A stretch of DNA of 48,645 bases from an uncultured Deferribacterales bacterium (GTDB lineage: Bacteria; Chrysiogenota; Deferribacteres; Deferribacterales; Mucispirillaceae). Both the position numbers and the translations under genes were made by a program. Below the pieces are notes generated by a model. It did not search any database and was not told the DNA's origin. It saw nothing but the letters and a program-made list of their open reading frames with translations. The stretch covers positions 1 through 48,645 of the forward strand of contig CANTXF010000050.1 in NCBI GenBank assembly GCA_947853665.1, read 5' to 3'. This document shows, piece after piece, positions 1 to 47,119 of the stretch (the first letter of the stretch is position 1; every line of letters begins with the position of its first letter).

Positions 1-170
1 TCGCGCGTCGCTTTCTATCCACCAAAGCGGGATGCGCAATATTTGTAGACAGAAAGCGAGCCGCATTAATTGAGGCGGCTCCCGCTTTTGTCGCGCGTCG
101 CTTGGGAGCAAGCAAAGCAAACGTTTCCTTTCCGCCAACATCCGCGCTGATAAAGCAGGCGTATATGTTC
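1..170. repeat. Degenerate hairpin-repeat array A
   Basis: This non-coding stretch holds partial copies of the hairpin repeat family also found near 15.1 and 23.3 kb. It begins with a right arm and the linker CTATCCACC, continues with a left arm AAAGCGGGATGCGC, and then has a complete hairpin (arms 53-64 and 75-88) that is inverted relative to the units in the other arrays. A degenerate short-stem unit follows near 137. No coding potential was seen in 1-219. Confidence 0.7.
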
Positions 171-15117: not shown

Positions 15118-15352
15118 CATGCCAAAAACGGGACACGCAATATTTGTAGCGCGTCGTTTTCTATCCACCAAAACGGGAGGCGCAATATTTATCGCGCCTC
15201 GTTTTCTGAACACGGAGCGAAGCGGAGCAAAAGCGGGAGCCGCCTTATTAATGCGGCTCGCTTTCTGTCCACCAAAACGGGACGCGCAATATTTGTAGCG
15301 CGTCGTTTTCTATCCACTAAAACGGGAGCGGGTTATCTGTCCCCGCTCGTTT
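15118..15352. repeat. Hairpin-repeat array B (five units)
   Basis: Five tandem hairpins lie at about 15124-15160, 15170-15205, 15229-15264, 15274-15309 and 15319-15352. Each has outer arms AAAACG / CGTTTT (or AAAGCG / CGCTTT) and an inner 6-bp stem that differs between units yet stays paired (AGGCGC, AGCCGC, ACGCGC, AGCGGG). Each also has an unpaired GG in the left arm and a 9-10 nt AT-rich loop. The linkers are CTATCCACC/CTGTCCACC, or a longer one containing GGAGCGAAGCGGAGC. Unit spacing is about 45 bp. There are no protein-coding signs. Confidence 0.85.
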
Positions 15353-15364
15353 GGGAGTTTATAT

Positions 15365-15540
15365 CCGTCAAAAGCGGATTATTTGTAAAAAGCGGCTTGT
15401 CCGCGCTGTGAAGGCGGAGGGTTAACGAATACTTCAAGGCACTGTTTGAGGGGGTTTATCCCCCTGAGTTTGCCGCAGGTGTTAACCTGACGCATGAACG
15501 TTCAGGGCAGACTGTGCGGTTTTATAAATAGTCCGCTTTT
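15365..15540. repeat. Non-coding repeat module following array B
   Basis: This 3' module includes ATTTGTAAAAAGCGGCTTG (about 15372-15390) and a block from 15482 to 15540 that recurs at 23596-23655, identical over its first 25 bases (starting TTAACCTGACGCATGAACG) and similar afterwards. A strong hairpin GAGGGGG / CCCCCTGA near 15449-15466 lies between. The recurrence behind a hairpin array at both places suggests one composite element. Confidence 0.65.
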
Positions 15541-23282: not shown

Positions 23283-23583
23283 AAAACGGGAGCGGGCTTA
23301 TTTGTCCCCGCTCGTTTTCTGAACACGGAGCGAAGCGGAGCAAAAACGGGAGGCGCATAATCTGTCGCGCCTCGTTTTCTGTCCACTAAAGCGGGATGCG
23401 CAATATTTGTCGCGCATCGCTTTCTATCCACCAACGTCTGCACCAATAAAGCAGACGTTTTCTGTCCACCAACATCTGCATAAATAAGGCAGATGTTTTA
23501 GAGCAAGCTCGGAATAGAAACCTTCGCATTAATGAAGCGAAGGTTTTCTGTCCGCCAACATTTGCATTTATCAGGCAAATATT
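23283..23583. repeat. Hairpin-repeat array C (seven units, two subtypes)
   Basis: Units with a GG bulge: 23283-23318, 23343-23378 and 23388-23423. Units with perfect 9-bp stems and no bulge: 23433-23459 (AACGTCTGC / GCAGACGTT), 23471-23497 (AACATCTGC / GCAGATGTT), 23519-23545 (AACCTTCGC / GCGAAGGTT) and 23557-23583 (AACATTTGC / GCAAATATT). Linkers are TTTTCTGTCCACC, TTTTCTGTCCGCC or the GGAGCGAAGCGGAGC type. Compensatory changes preserve all stems, and one short-stem unit has only a G-T type mismatch. Non-coding, between two unrelated genes. Confidence 0.87.
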
Positions 23584-23595
23584 TTCTGTCCGCCA

Positions 23596-23655
23596 TTAAC
23601 CTGACGCATGAACGTTCAGGACGGACGGAGCGGTCTTATAAATAATCGCGCTTTT
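23596..23655. repeat. Module following array C, second copy
   Basis: It repeats 15482-15540: 25 identical bases beginning TTAACCTGACGCATGAACG, then a diverged part containing GCGGTCTTATAAATAATC. In both places it sits just beyond a hairpin array. Confidence 0.7.
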
Positions 23656-23753: not shown

Positions 23754-24407
23754 TCAGAAAGGAAGGCTTTTGATAATAGAAGCAAGCACAGCGTCCCGCG
23801 GCAGGAGACGGCCGTTTTCCACGCAATTTATCACGCGCCAGCCGTCCTGAACGGCTGTTTTCCTGTATGCTCCGTACACGGCTTCCATGTAGCCGCCGTC
23901 CCTTTCGTGTATGTCCTCCTTTTGGGACGTGTACGCGCGGACGCTTTTTTTAAGCACCATAGCGCGGGAAACGGAGGGCGGCACGTCGAGAAAAAAGACG
24001 CAATCCGGTTCGGGAAGCCCCAGCAGGCCGTATTCCATTTTTTTGACCCAGTCTATAAAGGCCACGCGGGCTTTTTCCGGCAGCTTTGCCGCCTGATAAA
24101 CGAAGTTTGAAGGGACGTAACGGTCAAAAATAACGATTTTACCGGCTTTGAGAGCGGCCTCTATGTCCTTTTTCATTTCAAACCGGTCAAGGGCGTACAG
24201 CATGGCGGGAAATTCCGCAGGCAGAGACGCCATATCCCCGTAACCGCCGTTAAGGTACTTGGCGACCTCTCCGCCGAATAAGGTGCCCTCGTAATCGGGA
24301 AAGCTGAAAAGGACGTTATCCGCGCCCTTTTCATTAAGGTATCCCGCAAGAGCGGCGGACTGGGTGCCTTTTCCGGAGCCGTCTATGCCCTCGAACGCTA
24401 TTATCAA
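23754..24407 (-). CDS. tmk: Thymidylate kinase
   Basis: Phosphorylates dTMP to dTDP. The 217-residue protein has the P-loop FEGIDGSGKGT (about 5-15), the DRY motif in FDRYVPSNFVYQAAK and a lid segment KKSVRAYTSQKEDIHERD. Lysine and arginine positions differ from the E. coli type. The start is TTG, overlapping the ppiD stop by 4 bases (TTGA), and the ribosome site is weak, so translation probably depends on coupling. Full length. Confidence 0.93.
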   Translation of the reverse strand: MIIAFEGIDGSGKGTQSAALAGYLNEKGADNVLFSFPDYEGTLFGGEVAKYLNGGYGDMASLPAEFPAMLYALDRFEMKKDIEAALKAGKIVIFDRYVPSNFVYQAAKLPEKARVAFIDWVKKMEYGLLGLPEPDCVFFLDVPPSVSRAMVLKKSVRAYTSQKEDIHERDGGYMEAVYGAYRKTAVQDGWRVINCVENGRLLPRDAVLASIIKSLPF

Positions 24408-38255: not shown

Positions 38256-41200
38256 TTAGATCTGCCCTCCCACACCTTTAAATTTTTCAATAAAAGCGGC
38301 AATCCGTAGGAAAACACCCTGTTTCTTTGTCAGATACTGCGGGTTTAATGGGCTCATCTTGGGCAGGATGGAGTTGAGCTCAGTGCCATTTTCGCTAGCA
38401 TATTCCCGTTTTAGTGATGCGACAATGTAGCGTTTAGCCGCCTCCACATTTAGGTTCTCTTCAGTTATCAGTTTTTGTGCCTCACGCTGCTGCTCCGCTC
38501 TAGCAAAGGCAAAGAAAGCATCAATTACGCTAGCTTTGTCGCCAAGCTGATCTAAATCTGTTTGATTGATAAAATCGACCACCAAGCTTTCTTTGGCGCG
38601 GTTGCCTAGGCTAGCACGAATCACACGGCGAATATCTTCGACCAGTGCGACTTTGTCCTTGATCTTTTTATTATTCTCAAAAATCAGTTCCAAAATGTAG
38701 TCCAAATTGATTTCTTGTGACTTCAACAAGTCAACCTCAAAAACTACATCATCCCAGTCTATGGTTGATTTTTCTTTGTCATTGGCGGATTTTTCGCGGC
38801 GCAGCCACTCGCGAACATCATTATAAGTTGAACGATAGTCCTGAATTTCCCGTTCAGACGGTATCTTAATCGCTTGCAGAGTCGCCAGTTCCTCATCATT
38901 TAAGTAATGCCTGGCTTTGAATTCCTCGACCGCCGCAGGATCGTTAATGTCAACTTTCTGCATGGCTTTGAGGTTGGTAAATTCATCATAATTTTGCAAT
39001 ACGTTCTCAACACGCATATATTCGCCAAACAGCTTCACAAAGGCCTTTTTATCAGATTCTTTTTCAATAGATGAAGGATCAGGGAAACGCTTCTCCAATT
39101 CCTCTACAATATCAACAAATCCACGCCGCGCTTCACCAGTAACTACATCGGTAAAACCCTCCATGTACTCCTTATAACTCTTTTCCAGCACCACGTTTTT
39201 GGTATTACTATCGCCAAATGTGGTTATAGCATCAATTGTCGCCTGCTCTAGATCACGGAAGGTAACAATATTACCAAAAGTTTTAGTGGCATCATAAATA
39301 CGGTTGGTGCGAGAATAGGCCTGTATCAGTCCGTGATAACGTAAGTTCTTGTCAACAAAGAGAGTGTTCAGCGTCGGGGCGTCAAAACCGGTCAGGAACA
39401 TGCCCACCACTATCAACAAGTCAACTTCCTGATTTTTCACGCGTAATGCAAGATCACGATAATAGTTTTGAAATGCTTTGCTTTCCACACTGAAACTGGT
39501 TTTGAATAACGCATTATAATCGGCTATAGCTGCACTCAAAAATTCCTTAGCGCTGCTATTCATAGCAGAAACGTCAAAGCTTTCATCTGGGATATCACCT
39601 ATGGCGTCTTGCTCTTCATTGGCTGCGAATGAGAATATAGTGGCCACTTTTAAAGGGTTAGAGTTACCTTTTTGCACCTCTTTGAACGATTCGTAATAAA
39701 GCTTGGCAGCATCCACACTGCTCACGGCAAACATAGCGTTAAAGCCTTTTGCTCCTATTTGAAAACGATGAGTTTTCTGCCGAAAATTATTTAGAATGTA
39801 TTGGGTAATTTCTTGGATACGTTCCGGATGTAGCAGAGCTTGCTTATTCTCTGCTGCACTTAGTTTTTTCTCGTCCTGCTCAGTTTCGATAGCCTGGAAC
39901 TGCGGACGCACATCGTTATAGTCCACTTTAAACTTTAACACCTTTTCATCACGAATGGCATCAGTTATTACATAAGAATGCAGCTCACGACCAAATATGG
40001 TTGCCGTAGTTTCTGCTCCAAGAGCGTTTTCCGGGAAAATTGGCGTACCTGTAAAGCCAAACTGGATATATTTTTTAAACTTTTTCTTCAGATTCTTCTG
40101 TGCTTCCCCAAACTGGCTACGGTGGCATTCGTCAAAAATAAACACCACCTGCTGATTGTATACGGGCAAGTCGTTTTCGCTCTTCATCAGGTTATTTAGC
40201 TTCTGGATAGTAGTGACAATAATCTTGTTGTCATCTTTATCCAGATTGCGCTTAAGCCCTGCTGTGCTATCAGAGCCATTTACGCTATCTGGCGAAAAAC
40301 GCTGATATTCCTTCATGGTTTGATAATCCAAATCTTTACGATCCACAACGAAAAAGACTTTATCAATAAAATCCAGCTCGGTGGTCATGCGTGCCGCCTT
40401 AAAGCTGGTTAAAGTTTTACCAGAGCCTGTGGTGTGCCAGATATAGCCCCCACTTTCTATTTTGCTCCAGTTTTTTGACAAATGCGCGCATTTGATTTTC
40501 TCCAAAATGCGCTCTGTAGCCGCAATTTGATAGGGGCGCATCACAAGTAGCGTATTGTTGACATCAAACACTGAATAATGTAGCAACACACGAAGCAAAG
40601 TATTCTTTTGAAAAAAGGTGGCAGTAAAATCCTTCAAGTCTTTGATTAGATCGTTATTGGCCTTTGCCCAGTTCATGGTGAAATCAAAGCTGTTTTTGTT
40701 GCGCTGCGTAGTATTAGCAAAATAGCGGGTATCCGTGCCATTAGAGATCACAAATATCTGTAAATACTTGAATAACGAATGCTCGCTGTTGAAGCTCTCT
40801 TTGCTGTAGCGATGCACCTGATTGAACGCCTCGCGAATTGCCACACCGCGTTTTTTAAGCTCCACCTGCACCAAAGGCAGGCCGTTGACGAGTATTGTCA
40901 CGTCGTAGCGGTTGGCGTGACTGCCGGCCTGCTCAAACTGGCTGATCACCTGTACTTTATTGCGGGCGATATTTTTTTTATCCACGAGATAAATGTTTTG
41001 GATGTGCCCATCATCAAAAACAAAATCGTGAATATAGTCATCATGAATCTTACGGGTTTTGTCAACAATACCTTCACTTGACTTATTCAGCCAGTTTTCC
41101 ATAAAACGCTGCCATTCATCGTCTAAAAATTGCACGTTGTTCAAGGTTTGCAACTGTTCACGTGTGTTGGCTAGCAGTTTATCAGGCGTGTTTAGCTCAG

Positions 41201-41354
41201 ATAGATATTCATAGCCTTGATTTTGCAGGTCTTGAATGAGCTCCCGCTCCAAGTCGCTTTCACTTTGATAGCTTTCAGCAATTTGCCACTCTCTGATGTA
41301 TTTATCAAGAACTATAAAGTTGTTGGATTCAATAATGGGCTTTAATTCGTGCAT
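38256..41354 (-). CDS. hsdR: Type I restriction enzyme subunit R (type IC, EcoR124I-like)
   Basis: Motor and nuclease subunit of a type I restriction-modification complex. The 1032-residue protein has the nuclease triad D151, E165 and K167 (RYDVTILV...VQVELKK) and the Walker A HTTGSGKT (307-314, K313). The DECH box is at 408-411, with further helicase motifs FGFTGTP and YSRTNRIYD. These positions coincide with those I recall for EcoR124I (1038 aa), the type IC prototype. C-terminal helical domain complete. Follows prrC by 17 bp with an AAGGAT site. Confidence 0.96.
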
Positions 41355-41371
41355 GTTTTATCCTTGAACTA

Positions 41372-42499
41372 TTAGCCTTCAGCCTGATGAAAGCGATACA
41401 TTTTGTTAAGTTCCTGTACCAGATAACGCAAAACGCGCTTATCATCTTCAGTAATGTAAGGCACTTCTTCACCTGCATGTTTTGAGTGACTGCAAAGATT
41501 AATGATTCGAGCCTCATACGGATTGGTCTCATCCTCAGTTCTTGGCAGCAAATCTTCCCATCTTTTATATCCAAGAAAAGTTGAGGTCTTTTCCAGAATA
41601 TTTCTTAAAAAATTAAAGTGGAACTTACTCAGATAGTCGCTCTCAATGGCTTTTTCAAGCTCTAACTTCAAATAAAGATGGTATGAAAATGGTGAGTCGT
41701 TAGGCTGTTCGTCTAAATTATAGGTGCCATCATCAAGCTTTGTCATCAACCACCTGACGCAATGTTTTCGCTTATAGCTATATTTATCATTGTTTAATTC
41801 GTTATGCAAAACGTTGTAAAAGAGCGGATTATGGGTAGTGATGATGAATTTGACATCTGATTTATTTATCTTGATCAATTCTGCCAGATCTATAGCCACC
41901 TGAATCAGGTGGTTTTCATCCAATGAACTTACAGGATCGTCAATAAAGATATATTCCAGGTGGTCAAATTCGCTGATTTCACGTTTATCAGGTTCCGCAA
42001 TATTAAGCACGTCTATCACCAGCTCAAGTAATGTATAGAAAATGCTCCATATGAAATTGCTTTCTTCACCTTTGGATATTTTCAGATTATCTGAACGTTC
42101 ATCATCACCACGTTCCAGAGAGAAAATTACTTCCGAGAATTCTTCATTGAATCGTGGTGTTAATTTATTATTGGTGTAACGTTGAAAGGTTGTGATAATA
42201 TTCTGGTCTTGACCTTGATCCTTGAGTACCCAGTCAGTAAAGGAGTTGGGTTGGATTTTCAGCTTGCGTTCTGCATCCATATCCAGATCGTTATCCCAAT
42301 AAAACAAATCTTCGGTAAAGGCACTATAATAAATAAATTTAACGCCCGAAGGCTCAATTTCGCTTATTTTTGGAGCAATCAGCTCTTTGAATTCCCGTGA
42401 TAACCGCGTTTTACCTGCGCCATTAAAAGCATAGATCAACTGCACCTTTTTTTCACTATTATTCAGTTGTTCGGCGATTTCGGTTAGTGTTTTGCCCAT
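41372..42499 (-). CDS. prrC: PrrC anticodon nuclease
   Basis: Abortive-infection ribonuclease held silent by the type IC complex it is encoded within; in E. coli it cuts tRNA-Lys in the anticodon loop when a phage inhibits restriction. The 375-residue protein has an ABC-type ATPase part: Walker A AFNGAGKT (24-31), signature SKGEE (142-146), Walker [14 protein letters not shown] (183-195) and H-loop TTH (221-223). It also has the nuclease part with R299-x3-E303 (FLRNILEKT) and H338 (LCSHSKHA), matching the Arg-Glu-His triad of E. coli PrrC. The N-terminus [12 protein letters not shown] is nearly that of PrrC. One base separates it from hsdS. Slightly shorter than the 396-aa prototype. All key residues present, so probably functional. 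Confidence 0.95.
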
Positions 42500-42500
42500 A

Positions 42501-43712
42501 TTAGCTTACCTTTTCAGTTTTGGGGAAGCTGAACAGTAGATCGCGGTAATACTCGTATTGTTTTTGACGCAATTTAATTTCAAGTGGCAAGCCTTCAGTG
42601 ATAGAATTGATCAGGGCATCGAATTTATCGAGTATGGCAACAATACGAGCTTGTGCGGCAAGAGATTTTTCAGGATCGTTTGAGTATGGAATGGGAACAA
42701 GTATTTTAGCCAAATCCCCGCTTGAGACTCTACGAACCTTTGTGCCTGTAATATATTTTATTTTCTGCCGTTGGAATGTATCTGTTTGAAAAAAATATGC
42801 AAGGTATTTCACATTTTGCTCATGCCTGAATATCATCATGTCGCCAGAGATCGCTACTTGCTCTCCAAGCCATGCTAATGGCTTTACCACATCCTCATCA
42901 TTTTCCGATGTTGTTGCAAGAAGCAAATCATTTTTTTGAGCTATTTTCAGCCTATTAGCCAACTCTTCAGGTACATAGATAAGTGTTTTATCGGCAGAAA
43001 GTCCATATCTAGTATAGATCTGACCATAATGAATCGCAGGAAAACCCACTCCTACAAAATCCTTTTTCTGCATACCACTACCACGAATAAATTCGCCAAT
43101 TTTCCCCAACGCCCTCCACTCCACATCCCCTTCGTCAAAACTCAATAACTGGTCACGGTAATGGGCATATTGCTTTTTACGAGCGATAAGCTCAGTGGTA
43201 AGCTCAGTGGTAAGCTCAGTGAAAGCATCTAAGATGCGAGCTATTTCTGCTTGAATGTCAAGCGATTTTTTAGGGTTGTCTGGGCATGGGATGGGAATTT
43301 TGAATTCTTCAATCATGGGCTTTCTAATTGATACGGCAGTTGCGCCAACACTTTTCATCAAAATATACTGTTTAAAACTAGAAAACATAAAGTGATACAG
43401 ATATTTTGTGCTTACATTATCCGATGTAATATGAATCCGATAAGCCCTTTGATGTAGGGCATACTTCCCTTCTATATAGTGAAATATGTCACCAATTCCA
43501 CCTTCTCCAGGGATAACGATTGCTACTTCATCAAATTCGTAGGAATCTGATTTCAAGATATTTTTTGAGCGAACATAGAATGGATAGACTCCATTTTCAC
43601 TTTCGTCTTGGCGATTTGAACTTCCTGTACCAATATTTGCCACAGAGCCTAATGTAACCCACTCCACCTCAACACCATTCAATAACTTTTCCAAAAAGTT
43701 CATGCCACTCAT
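42501..43712 (-). CDS. hsdS: Type I restriction-modification specificity subunit S
   Basis: DNA-recognition subunit with two target-recognition domains (about 15-155 and 205-345), each followed by a conserved helical spacer. The central spacer reads [30 protein letters not shown] and the C-terminal one [31 protein letters not shown], the circular-repeat layout of type IC HsdS. The TELT repeat in the centre corresponds to the TAEL repeat whose copy number sets the spacer length of EcoR124 target sites. Separated from hsdM by two bases, AAGGACAATAGG upstream. 403 residues, full length. Confidence 0.94.
43191..43221 (-). repeat. 12-bp tandem repeat in the hsdS central spacer
   Basis: CTCAGTGGTAAG occurs at 43191-43202 and 43203-43214, followed by a partial third copy CTCAGTG (43215-43221). 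The coding strand reads (ACT GAG CTT ACC) twice and then ACT GAG CTT, that is [11 protein letters not shown]. Gain or loss of one unit keeps the frame and changes the distance between the two DNA-recognition domains. Confidence 0.9.
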
Positions 43713-43714
43713 GC

Positions 43715-45259
43715 CTATTGTCCTTCAATTTCCGCTACAATAGCATCAATATCCTTTCGCAGTTGATCGATCTTTGAGACTATGACTTGCAACTCAGCAT
43801 TCAACTGTGCAATATCTACCACTTCGCGGGTGTCCTCGGCTTCAACATAGCTACTGACCGAGAGATTATAATCGTTGCCTGTGATTCTTTCAAATGGAAC
43901 TGACATTGCAAAATGCTCCACATCCGCCTTGCTGTCAAACACCTGTAAAATCTGCTCAATGTGCTCATCCAACAATGTGTTGGTATTGGTTTCTTTCCTG
44001 AAAAGACCGCTGGCATCAATAAATTGGGTTTTTGTATCGGTTTTATGCTTTGAAAGCACCAGAATGTTCACTGCTATGCTGGTACCGAAAAACAGATTGG
44101 GTGCCAGCGAGATTACCGTTTCCACATAGTTATTATCAATCAGATACTGGCGGATTTTCTGCTCAGCACCGCCCCGGTAAAAAATACCAGGAAAGCATAC
44201 AATGGCAGCACGTCCCTTACTCGAAAGGTAGCTGAGAGCATGAAGCACAAAGGCAAAGTCAGCCTTGGATTTGGGAGCTAACACACCGGCAGGCGCAAAA
44301 CGCGCATCGTTGATCAAAGTCGGGTCGTCTGAACCTATCCACTTCACCGAGTAAGGCGGGTTGGAGACAATAGCATCAAATGGTTTACCATCGCCAAAAT
44401 GCGGGTTAGTCAGCGTATCTCCTAACTTGATGTTGAACTTGTCGTAATTGATATTGTGCAGAAACATATTCATCCGTGCAAGGTTGTATGTGGTGTGGTT
44501 AATCTCTTGACCAAAAAAACCATCTTCAATGATATGAGCGTCGAACTGTTTTTTAGCCTGCAACAGCAAAGAGCCGGAGCCACAAGCCGGATCATAAATT
44601 TTATTAACACTGTCTTGCTTGTGTAAAGCCAGACGTGCGATCAACTTGGATACATGCTGAGGGGTAAAAAATTCACCGCCGGATTTACCAGCATTGGCAG
44701 CATACTTAGAGATTAAAAATTCATAAGCATCGCCAAACAGGTCTATATGGTTGTCTGCAAAATCACCTAAATCAAGAGCAGCCACTCCGTTGAGCACTGC
44801 TGCCAAACGGAAGTTTCTGTCTTTAACAGTATTGCCAAGACGGCTACTGGTGGTATCAAAGTCTGCAAATAGGCCTTTTATGTCTTGCTCAGAGGGATAA
44901 CCATTTGCCGAGCTTTCAATAGCTGCAAATATATCAGCCAGAGCAATGTTAAGGCTCTCATTAGTGTTAGCATTAGCAACCACATTGGCAAATAACTGGC
45001 TAGGGTAAATGAAATAGCCTTTAGTCTTGACAGCGTCTTCTTTAATTTCAGGAGTTATAACATTATCAGAAAGTTTTGCATAGTTGATGCTGGTATCACC
45101 ACCTTCAATATAATTTGCAAAGTTTTCGCTGATAAATCGATAAAATAAGGTACCGAGAACATATTGCTTAAAATCCCATCCATCTACTGCGCCACGGACA
45201 TCATTAGCAATTTGCCATATCTGACGGTGCAGTGCGACACGTTGTTGTATGTTCATCAT
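43715..45259 (-). CDS. hsdM: Type I restriction-modification methyltransferase subunit M
   Basis: N6-adenine methyltransferase subunit. The 514-residue protein has an N-terminal helical domain ([20 protein letters not shown]), the sequence [14 protein letters not shown], motif I DPACGSG (223-229) and the catalytic motif IV NPPY (300-303), then the C-terminal tail with coiled-coil residues. Length and sequence are close to type IC HsdM. First gene of hsdM-hsdS-prrC-hsdR, preceded by GGGAAAAATACA and a 500-bp AT-rich gap. Confidence 0.96.
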
Positions 45260-45659: not shown

Positions 45660-46840
45660 TCATTGGATTTCTTTTAGCTTATCCAAATAATCTGCCCACT
45701 TTTGCATCATTTCTGTTCTTTGGGGTATATCTTCAGCATGGTTGTAGGCTGCTTTAACCGAATTCCTTTCCGCATGAGCTAACTGCATTTCTATATGAGC
45801 CTATTCAAAACCATGCTCATGTAATAGGGTTGAAGCCATGCCCCTGAATCCATGTCCTGTCATTTCATCTTTCTCATAACCCATACGCCGCAATGCTGCG
45901 TTTATAGTATTATTGCTTATAGGTCTTTCTTTTGAACGCACAGAAGGAAATACATATTTCCATTTTCCTGTAATTGGCTGTATTTCCTGCAGTATCGCTA
46001 TGACCTGTGTGGAAAGAGGTATGATGTGGGGTCTTTTCATCTTCATTTTCTCTGCGGGTATTTTCCATTGCTTTTTATCAAAATCAATTTCCGACCATTC
46101 TGCACTTCTAAGCTCTACCGGACGGAGCATGGCATAAGGAGCTAATTTTAAAACGCATCTGGTCTCAATACTCCCGTCATACCCACCTATTGCCCCTCAA
46201 TAAAGCACCTATTTTCCTGGGATCGGCAATCGTGGCCATATATTTGTTTCTTTTAGGAATTAAAACACCTTCAATTGACTACGTAGAATCTATCTCACAT
46301 TTTTCTGTATGAATACCATATCTGAATACTTCCCCACAGATTCTCTTTACTCTATGACCTATATCAACCGCACTTCTTTTTTGGATCTTTTCAAATAAGG
46401 CGATAAGCTCTCTAACAGATATTTTATTTAGTAGGTGTCTTGCCGATTGCAAGGAAAACATCCTTTTCAAGAAAATGCCATTTCCGCTGTGCATGCGTTT
46501 CAGACCATTTACTCTTTAGTCTCTCATACCATTCTAAAGCGACAGCCTGAAAACTATTAGTTGTAATTTTTTAGTTTTTCTTTCTGCCAGTGGATCAATC
46601 CCTTGCTGTATAAGCTTTCTTGTCTCGTCACATTTTTCTATGGCTTCTTTTAGTGCAATTTCAGGATAGGCATCTAATGCAAGTGTTTTTTTCTTCCCTG
46701 CAAAGCGGTAATCTAATCTGAAATACCTTCCGCCTGTCTTTTTAATAAAAAGATACATAGCTCTTTCATCTGCTATCTTATAATCCTTGTCTTTTGGTTT
46801 TGCGTTTCTTATGACGGTATCTCCATATTCGCTGAGAATG
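45660..46840 (-). pseudogene. P4-type tyrosine recombinase (island integrase), broken
   Basis: The pieces together cover a whole integrase. N-terminal DUF4102 part (DTVIRNAKPKDKDYKIADER, then YRFAGKKKTLALDAYPEIAL; 46534-46840, start lost). Core-binding part (46279-46494). Catalytic domain with LRPVELRSAEWSEIDF, TGHGFRGMASTLLHE (HxxR) and QLAHAERNSVKAAYNHA (tyrosine), and the tail KWADYLDKLKEIQ. Frameshifts separate the pieces, and a TAG at 45801-45803 replaces a Gln before AHIEMQLAH. It lies between the island and the tRNA-Leu 3' end, as for integrases of tRNA-borne islands. Inactive as written. Confidence 0.88.
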
Positions 46841-47035: not shown

Positions 47036-47119
47036 TGCCCGAAGCCGGAATCGAACCGGCACAGAGTTGCCTCCGAGGGATTTTAAGTCCCTTGCGTCTA
47101 CCTATTCCGCCATTCGGGC
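47036..47119 (-). tRNA. tRNA-Leu (anticodon TAA)
   Basis: Cloverleaf on the minus strand: acceptor GCCCGAA / TTCGGGC with discriminator A, D arm GGCGGAATAGGTAGACGC, anticodon stem AGGGA / TCCCT around the loop CTTAAAA (anticodon TAA), a long class II variable arm, and T arm GCCGG-TTCGATT-CCGGC. CCA is not encoded. The adjoining broken integrase makes it the likely island attachment gene. Confidence 0.96.

Follow-up and report, generated by a model that had tools for sequence, protein, structure and literature searches.

Hairpin arrays and their surroundings

The window, that is the whole stretch of 48,645 nucleotides analysed, carries two hairpin arrays and, at 1-104, a third that is broken by the contig end (Table 1). 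The tandem hairpins that the original prediction placed from position 23283 onward are real and the array, which sits between convergent genes, extends to 23594. Read from the window sequence, its order is A-M-A-S-A-S-B-S-B-L-B-S-B-S, head to tail, with three bulged, GC-rich A units and four nine-bp B units. In the 36-nt A hairpin the outer arms form 6 bp; then come a GG, unpaired and on the 5′ side, and a second, inner stem of 6 bp that is capped by a loop of 9-10 nt. The B hairpin, of 29-30 nt, has a 9-bp stem followed by TT. The linkers, thought at first to be a constant CTRTCCACC, fall into three classes, S (CTRTCCACC, 9 nt), L (AGAGCAAGCTCGGAACAGA, 19 nt) and M (CTGAACACGGAGCGAAGCGGAGCA, 24 nt). 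Three of the inner stems first listed, AGGCGC, ATGCGC and AGCGGG, occur in this array; the other two, ACGCGC and AGCCGC, belong to the array at 15125-15353. The second subtype was credited with perfect 9-bp stems, but in the B unit at 23557 only 8 of the 9 positions pair.

Table 1. Positions of hairpins, linkers and repeat modules in the window, and of repeat copies elsewhere in the genome.
Feature	Position	Strand	Remarks
A hairpin end and linker S	1..23	+	truncated by contig end (broken third array, 1-104)
Nested A hairpin	24..104	+	host hairpin split into 24-43 (nt 1-20) and 89-104 (nt 21-36) by a 45-nt antisense insert at 44-88
Second array	15125..15353	+	A hairpins at 15125, 15170, 15230, 15274, 15319; linkers S, M, S, S
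Repeat module U	15364..15479	+	about 115 bp; directly upstream of arrays on contigs C21 and C37
Repeat module T1	15482..15540	+	
A hairpin	23283..23318	+	AAAACG GG AGCGGG, 36 nt; covariance-model match, 55.4 bits
Linker M	23319..23342	+	CTGAACACGGAGCGAAGCGGAGCA, 24 nt; first linker of array
A hairpin	23343..23378	+	AGGCGC allele; covariance-model match
Linker S	23379..23387	+	CTGTCCACT
A hairpin	23388..23423	+	ATGCGC allele, outer arms AAAGCG/CGCTTT; covariance-model match
Linker S	23424..23432	+	CTATCCACC
B hairpin	23433..23461	+	AACGTCTGC, 29 nt; covariance-model match
Linker S	23462..23470	+	
B hairpin	23471..23499	+	AACATCTGC; covariance-model match
Linker L	23500..23518	+	AGAGCAAGCTCGGAATAGA; fifth linker of array
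B hairpin	23519..23547	+	AACCTTCGC; covariance-model match
Linker S	23548..23556	+	CTGTCCGCC
B hairpin	23557..23585	+	AACATTTGC, 8/9 paired; covariance-model match
Linker S	23586..23594	+	last in array
Repeat module T1	23596..23655	+	after array; other copies at 15482 and on contig C59
T2 repeat copies	L045:3115-3330, L045:3449-3664, L035:11674-11885, L035:7342-7566, L055:2766-2985, L044:393-611, L106:2785-2980		
GGGAACCGGCGAACGGTTCCC palindrome, L034 (contig C53)	630, 7794, 11872	+	
GGGAACCGGCGAACGGTTCCC palindrome, L034 (contig C53)	4069, 4748, 8760	-	
GGGAACCGGCGAACGGTTCCC palindrome, contig C39	25159	-	

Modules T1 and U contain suggestive reading frames (e.g. NLTHERSGxTxRxYK*) but occur in three to six copies and were treated as repeats, not genes. 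Another repeat, T2, is about 215 bp long and about 80% identical in seven copies. Its copies lie beside hairpin arrays. Within the repeat are TTTTTATAATA and a long palindrome (GGCAAGCCG...CGGCTTGCC), and at some loci the 115-bp module U comes next. A second dispersed palindrome, GGGAACCGGCGAACGGTTCCC, is dense on contig C53 and several copies are preceded by GCGGGAAGGGGG-type sequence; none was found in 400 kb of a relative, genome G002.

Two other regions of the window deserve mention. The thymidylate kinase gene beside the 23283 array (23754-24407, minus strand) has its nearest sequences among the scanned genomes in a Campylobacterota MAG (40%), Corynebacterium and archaea, and a horizontal origin is suggested. 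Near a tRNA gene (47036-47119) there is an apparent island, 38256-45259, of type I restriction genes encoding HsdR, an AAA_13 ATPase, HsdS and HsdM, with a broken phage-type integrase fragment at 45801-46130. The hsdS gene (42501-43712, minus strand) has a 12-bp tandem repeat at 43187-43221, between the two target-recognition domains, which we take to resemble the TAEL repeats of EcoR124 HsdS. In EcoR124 the copy number of the TAEL repeat sets the recognition spacing.

Base pairing and its carrier

Folded as single-stranded DNA, the 23283-23594 array gives z = -7.0, none of 100 shuffles being as good, and the second array z = -4.8. In 63 distinct A units the inner stem shows compensation, with changes on both sides in five of the 12 pairs, and 95.8% of cells are paired against 79.2% after shuffling of the 3′ letters; for the 37 B units the values are 96.7% and 88.7%. 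For both classes the structure is better than every slid version. Both sets were collected with covariance models that had themselves been made from paired units. Because units were thus partly chosen for pairing, it was recounted on intervals picked by linkers and length alone, ignoring pairing, which guards against the bias in part. Watson-Crick pairing is then 87.7% against 69.9% in shuffles for A (maximum of 1000 shuffles, 75.5) and 85.3% against 70.7% for B (maximum 75.2). The predicted compensatory change of the inner stem is confirmed, and the claim that base pairing, not sequence, is conserved in the hairpins is supported, also in the linker-picked units.

The outer arms, initially described as a constant AAAACG/CGTTTT, do vary: in the 63 units pair 4/33 is G-C in 29, A-T in 27 and T-A in three. 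The GG bulge comes closer to the constancy claimed for it, G7 being invariant and G8 present in at least 90% of units. A role of the GGA in the A bulge as a CsrA sponge was considered and dropped; B units lack GGA, and the copies are indifferent to strand and gene. Divergence from the allele consensus is 1-5% of positions in stems against 16% in loops, figures that share the selection bias of models built on paired units, and the CTRT adjoining the stem is about as well conserved as the stem itself. Four inner-stem alleles account for about 70% of A units. Loops differ at 2.6 of 10 positions within an allele and at 5.2 between alleles. The alleles, few and tied to their own loops, are subfamilies and not the free, variable tags once envisaged.

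In which molecule is the pairing kept? Selection in RNA or in cruciform DNA had been proposed. If RNA of one strand were the carrier, G-U would be expected to be far more tolerated than A-C. However G-T mismatches in stems number 23 as opposed to 36 A-C (15 and 20 in A units, 8 and 16 in B units); in the linker-picked units the totals are 21 and 18 (10 and 6 in A, 11 and 12 in B). On neither strand is there an RNA wobble signature, G-T not being in excess of A-C, and Rfam provided no array match at gathering and no meaningful match at E<=1. Of the two proposals DNA, as a cruciform or single-stranded, is the better fit.

Distribution and probable movement of the units

The covariance-model search suggested with the original prediction was run over the genome and its relatives. 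Where about 12 units had been counted the 2.43-Mb genome has about 95 A and 53 B sites, about 150 units; there are no A or B matches in 14 genomes of the same family, none of which is of the same genus. Other genomes searched gave only a few weak, isolated matches. The best of them, in genome G059 (28.5 bits), was rejected as a family member and reads as an ordinary terminator. The array was not found in the viral contigs, phages or plasmids searched, and a scan of 400 kb of genome G002 for clusters of at least three hairpins, whatever their sequence, returned none, whilst the window gave two. There is good reason to think that the hairpin family is confined to this Mucispirillaceae bacterium's own lineage.

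The units cluster at 58 loci, of which 22 have a single unit and the largest have eight. As 17 of the loci adjoin contig ends the real total may exceed our count. A genome-wide count gave 59 occurrences of the linker TTTCTRTCCRCC and four of the reversed pattern. Adjacent units share orientation in 85 of 93 pairs, and the spacing of same-strand neighbours is quantised in 76 of 85, at exactly 9, 19 or 24 nt (46, 24 and 6 pairs, respectively). Of 31 pairs of adjacent A units, 5 share an allele, where 4.5 are expected at random. Neighbours are therefore no more alike than random units; each array has been put together from independent units and is not a series of duplicates. There is polarity in the mixed arrays: 20 of 21 start with A (0 of 20000 permutations) and 15 of 21 end with B (p 0.006).

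The units lie mostly outside long ORFs. By a simple ORF rule, as opposed to a gene caller, 12 loci are convergent, 14 co-directional, seven divergent and eight inside ORFs, several of these short and doubtful. With many loci downstream of genes, covarying stems and strong folding, the arrays could be structured RNAs (regulatory RNA, an mRNA stabiliser or a protein sponge) with pairing selected in the RNA. The mismatch counts and the Rfam result already given, the copies in divergent regions and within ORFs, and the absence of the family from all 14 family genomes make this quite improbable. Multiplied terminators or bidirectional terminators beside genes are a further notion. A-tract and T-tract arms flank GC stems, the 23283 array has its convergent neighbours, and seven terminator-like sites, as opposed to 2.7 in shuffles, lie between 22800 and 24000. 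Few of these scan matches, though, are array hairpins, and those few lie on the minus strand; the run of T has a length of only four and continues as CTGTCC; B units are AT-rich; and arrays of up to eight units, with divergent-region and intragenic copies, exceed the needs of termination. We regard terminators as a very unlikely account. The divergent and intragenic positions, together with the absence from relatives, argue against explaining the family by a host RNA or a terminator, although individual copies may well affect transcripts.

The clearest sign of movement comes from eight A hairpins that each carry exactly 45 extra nt, made up of a 9-nt linker and a 36-nt AGCCGC-type hairpin, always antisense, as in the insert at 44-88 of the window. 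The insert follows host nt 20, in the loop, or nt 19-20 where decay is most advanced. Removal of the 45 nt in silico restores the host hairpin, with 12 or 11 of 12 pairs in five cases and nine in three decayed ones, and leaves no target duplication, such empty sites being demonstrable only inside sibling hairpins in a comparison set with no same-genus genome. The hosts differ in stem allele, AGCGGG on contig C33 and ACGCGC on C39, and hence at least two insertion events took place. More than two are likely, and the eight cases may descend from fewer than eight events. A MITE of a DDE transposon, with terminal inverted repeats and a target-site duplication, was also considered and set aside: excision of the 45 nt leaves no duplication.

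Units have entered genes too. A fusion gene for ketopantoate reductase (PanE) and NUDIX has in-frame units at C39:17969-18049, encoding LVDRK-type repeats within the N-terminal Rossmann region, and a gene for a TPR-containing protein has one in frame at C27:5652-5687; the 45-bp length of a unit preserves the reading frame. The TPR protein (L033:4081-6216, P0002) contains long internal duplications that are almost identical (EGLAEHMEEAEPADALSDEAGVLDGGLPDFP...), and one of the copies stops at the insertion.

The hairpins also bear a tag. On the bottom strand YAG abuts the 3′ foot of the palindrome in 55 of 94 A units and 34 of 53 B units, where chance predicts 2% per position, and on the top strand it stands 1 or 2 nt ahead of the 5′ foot in a further share of units. 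The right-hand tetranucleotide, NYAG, is ACAG in 45 and ATAG in 35 of 89 cases, together 80, and GTAG in one.

Some hairpins are hybrids, their arms matching different alleles, and include the reciprocal pair AGGCGC...GCGCGT and ACGCGC...GCGCCT, which indicates exchange between units at the loops. Exchange of this kind speaks for an account in which a few founders gave rise to the arrays solely through tandem duplication or slippage, followed by copying through recombination, with no transposition of single units. That account has little probability given neighbours no more alike than random units and the loci with a single unit, and exact, antisense 45-nt insertions in loops are not products of slippage.

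Which enzyme might have moved the units? In this genome, which is 97% complete, there was no match to the Y1 transposase family (PF01797), for which the same search was positive in the E. coli control, nor to reverse transcriptase (PF00078) or IS110 transposase (PF01548). PF01797 is matched in six of 15 family genomes, all from a sister genus, with intact frames of about 152 amino acids. The spreading enzyme has so been lost, was missed in the roughly 3% gap of the assembly or is of another kind. Integron integrase (TIGR02249) matched below the cut-off only, and did likewise in all 14 control genomes. This bears on a comparison with integrons, in which the arrays would be products of attC-type site-specific recombination with the cassettes shrunk to a hairpin. 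The mosaic, polarised arrays, the single-strand hairpins and the absence of target duplication are in keeping with the idea. It is nevertheless extremely improbable, since unit borders have no GTTRRRY/RYYYAAC core, B units end in GTTTTCT, no integrase reaches the cut-off and single units are found throughout the genome.

In our judgement the arrays are probably clusters of a dispersed, non-autonomous, REP-like family of mobile palindromes of one lineage. The mobile quantum, as read from the nested insertions, would be a single hairpin and a short linker (45 bp for A plus S), and units would spread to intergenic sites, into the loops of siblings and occasionally into genes without detectable target duplication. 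We infer that the machinery recognises folded single-stranded DNA, which would be why stem pairing is kept; a loop would offer a target since it is single-stranded once the hairpin folds. Palindrome, bulge, foot tag, lack of target duplication and loop target are the grounds for proposing past transposition of single-strand hairpins, probably of the Y1 type. The most likely machinery would be a Y1 HUH-type enzyme that acts on such hairpins and may read the NYAG tag and bulge as RAYTs read GTAG and bulge. Exchange of units at loops would later have reshuffled the arrays and given the hybrids. Set against the REP-like family are the lack of a Y1 enzyme in the assembly and a tag that is AYAG, not GTAG. 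It is less likely, though conceivable, that a non-Y1 enzyme moves the single hairpin and linker with a strong preference for exposed sibling loops. If true, this would be a mobile hairpin system of its own kind, and would explain the spread of REP-like repeats where no RAYT is present.

Comparison with known repeat systems

We file the hairpin family as a new variant of REP-like repeats, unusual in its single-hairpin insertion unit and missing enzyme. The original prediction was to be given up if the units matched a known REP/BIME or IS-derived family; by anatomy they behave like a REP/BIME-type family, by sequence they do not match one. Like the GTAG REPs, BIMEs and REPINs, they are palindromes of 20-40 nt, high in copy number and mostly intergenic, with several stem alleles that carry complementary changes, a stem bulge in one class, a short YAG-bearing foot tag, conserved spacers, clustering and occasional insertion into genes (PMC3733652, PMC8266576). 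TnpAREP enzymes recognise a tetranucleotide at the foot together with a bulge or loop of the stem, and their cleavage of single strands falls at CT or CA (PMC8266576). The tag here is in the right position at the foot but is AYAG instead of GTAG, and with no match to a RAYT or other Y1 transposase the genome has no repeat-flanked RAYT. Inverted doublets (HH/TT) do not predominate, most adjacent pairs being same-strand. In genomes with a RAYT the doublet, or REPIN, and not the single hairpin, is regarded as the mobile unit (PMC3116915), whereas the inserted unit here is one hairpin with its linker. A BIME is likewise a mosaic of palindromes with few conserved spacers, but the regular alternation of orientation is not seen. 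Judged by its tag, the missing RAYT and the head-to-tail order, the family is no GTAG REP in the strict sense.

The CGTC REPs, which include Neisseria dRS3 and Rickettsia RPE-4 and RPE-6, share A-T at the first two stem positions, 9-bp stems (as in the B units), intragenic copies and the want of a dedicated transposase (PMC3733652). They differ in that no CGTC, TGTC or CCTC with a CCA tail stands directly at the stem here, TGTC occurring only inside linker S; loops are of 9-10 nt as opposed to 4-5; and grouping in arrays is rare among CGTC repeats. The Rickettsia palindromic elements are also palindromic selfish DNA lying in frame within protein genes (PMC10969869), but a palindrome of about 150 bp with a conserved encoded peptide contrasts with our 45-bp, mostly intergenic units, and organism and sequence differ. 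Pneumococcal BOX elements are modular mosaics in which tandem boxB units, variable in number, are enclosed by other modules (PMC3049150), much as the hairpin arrays are bordered by modules U, T1 and T2. Our units, however, are self-contained hairpins of two classes, and the fixed left and right modules and IS-like terminal repeats of BOX were not identified.

How REP-like repeats without a RAYT multiply is an open question, stated for the CGTC repeats (PMC3733652). To it the family brings eight insertions resolved to the base, each of one hairpin and one linker, at the same loop position, in the same orientation and with no target duplication. Two palindrome classes, three linkers and a foot tag provide a concrete set of substrates on which a hairpin-specific nuclease or transposase can be tested.
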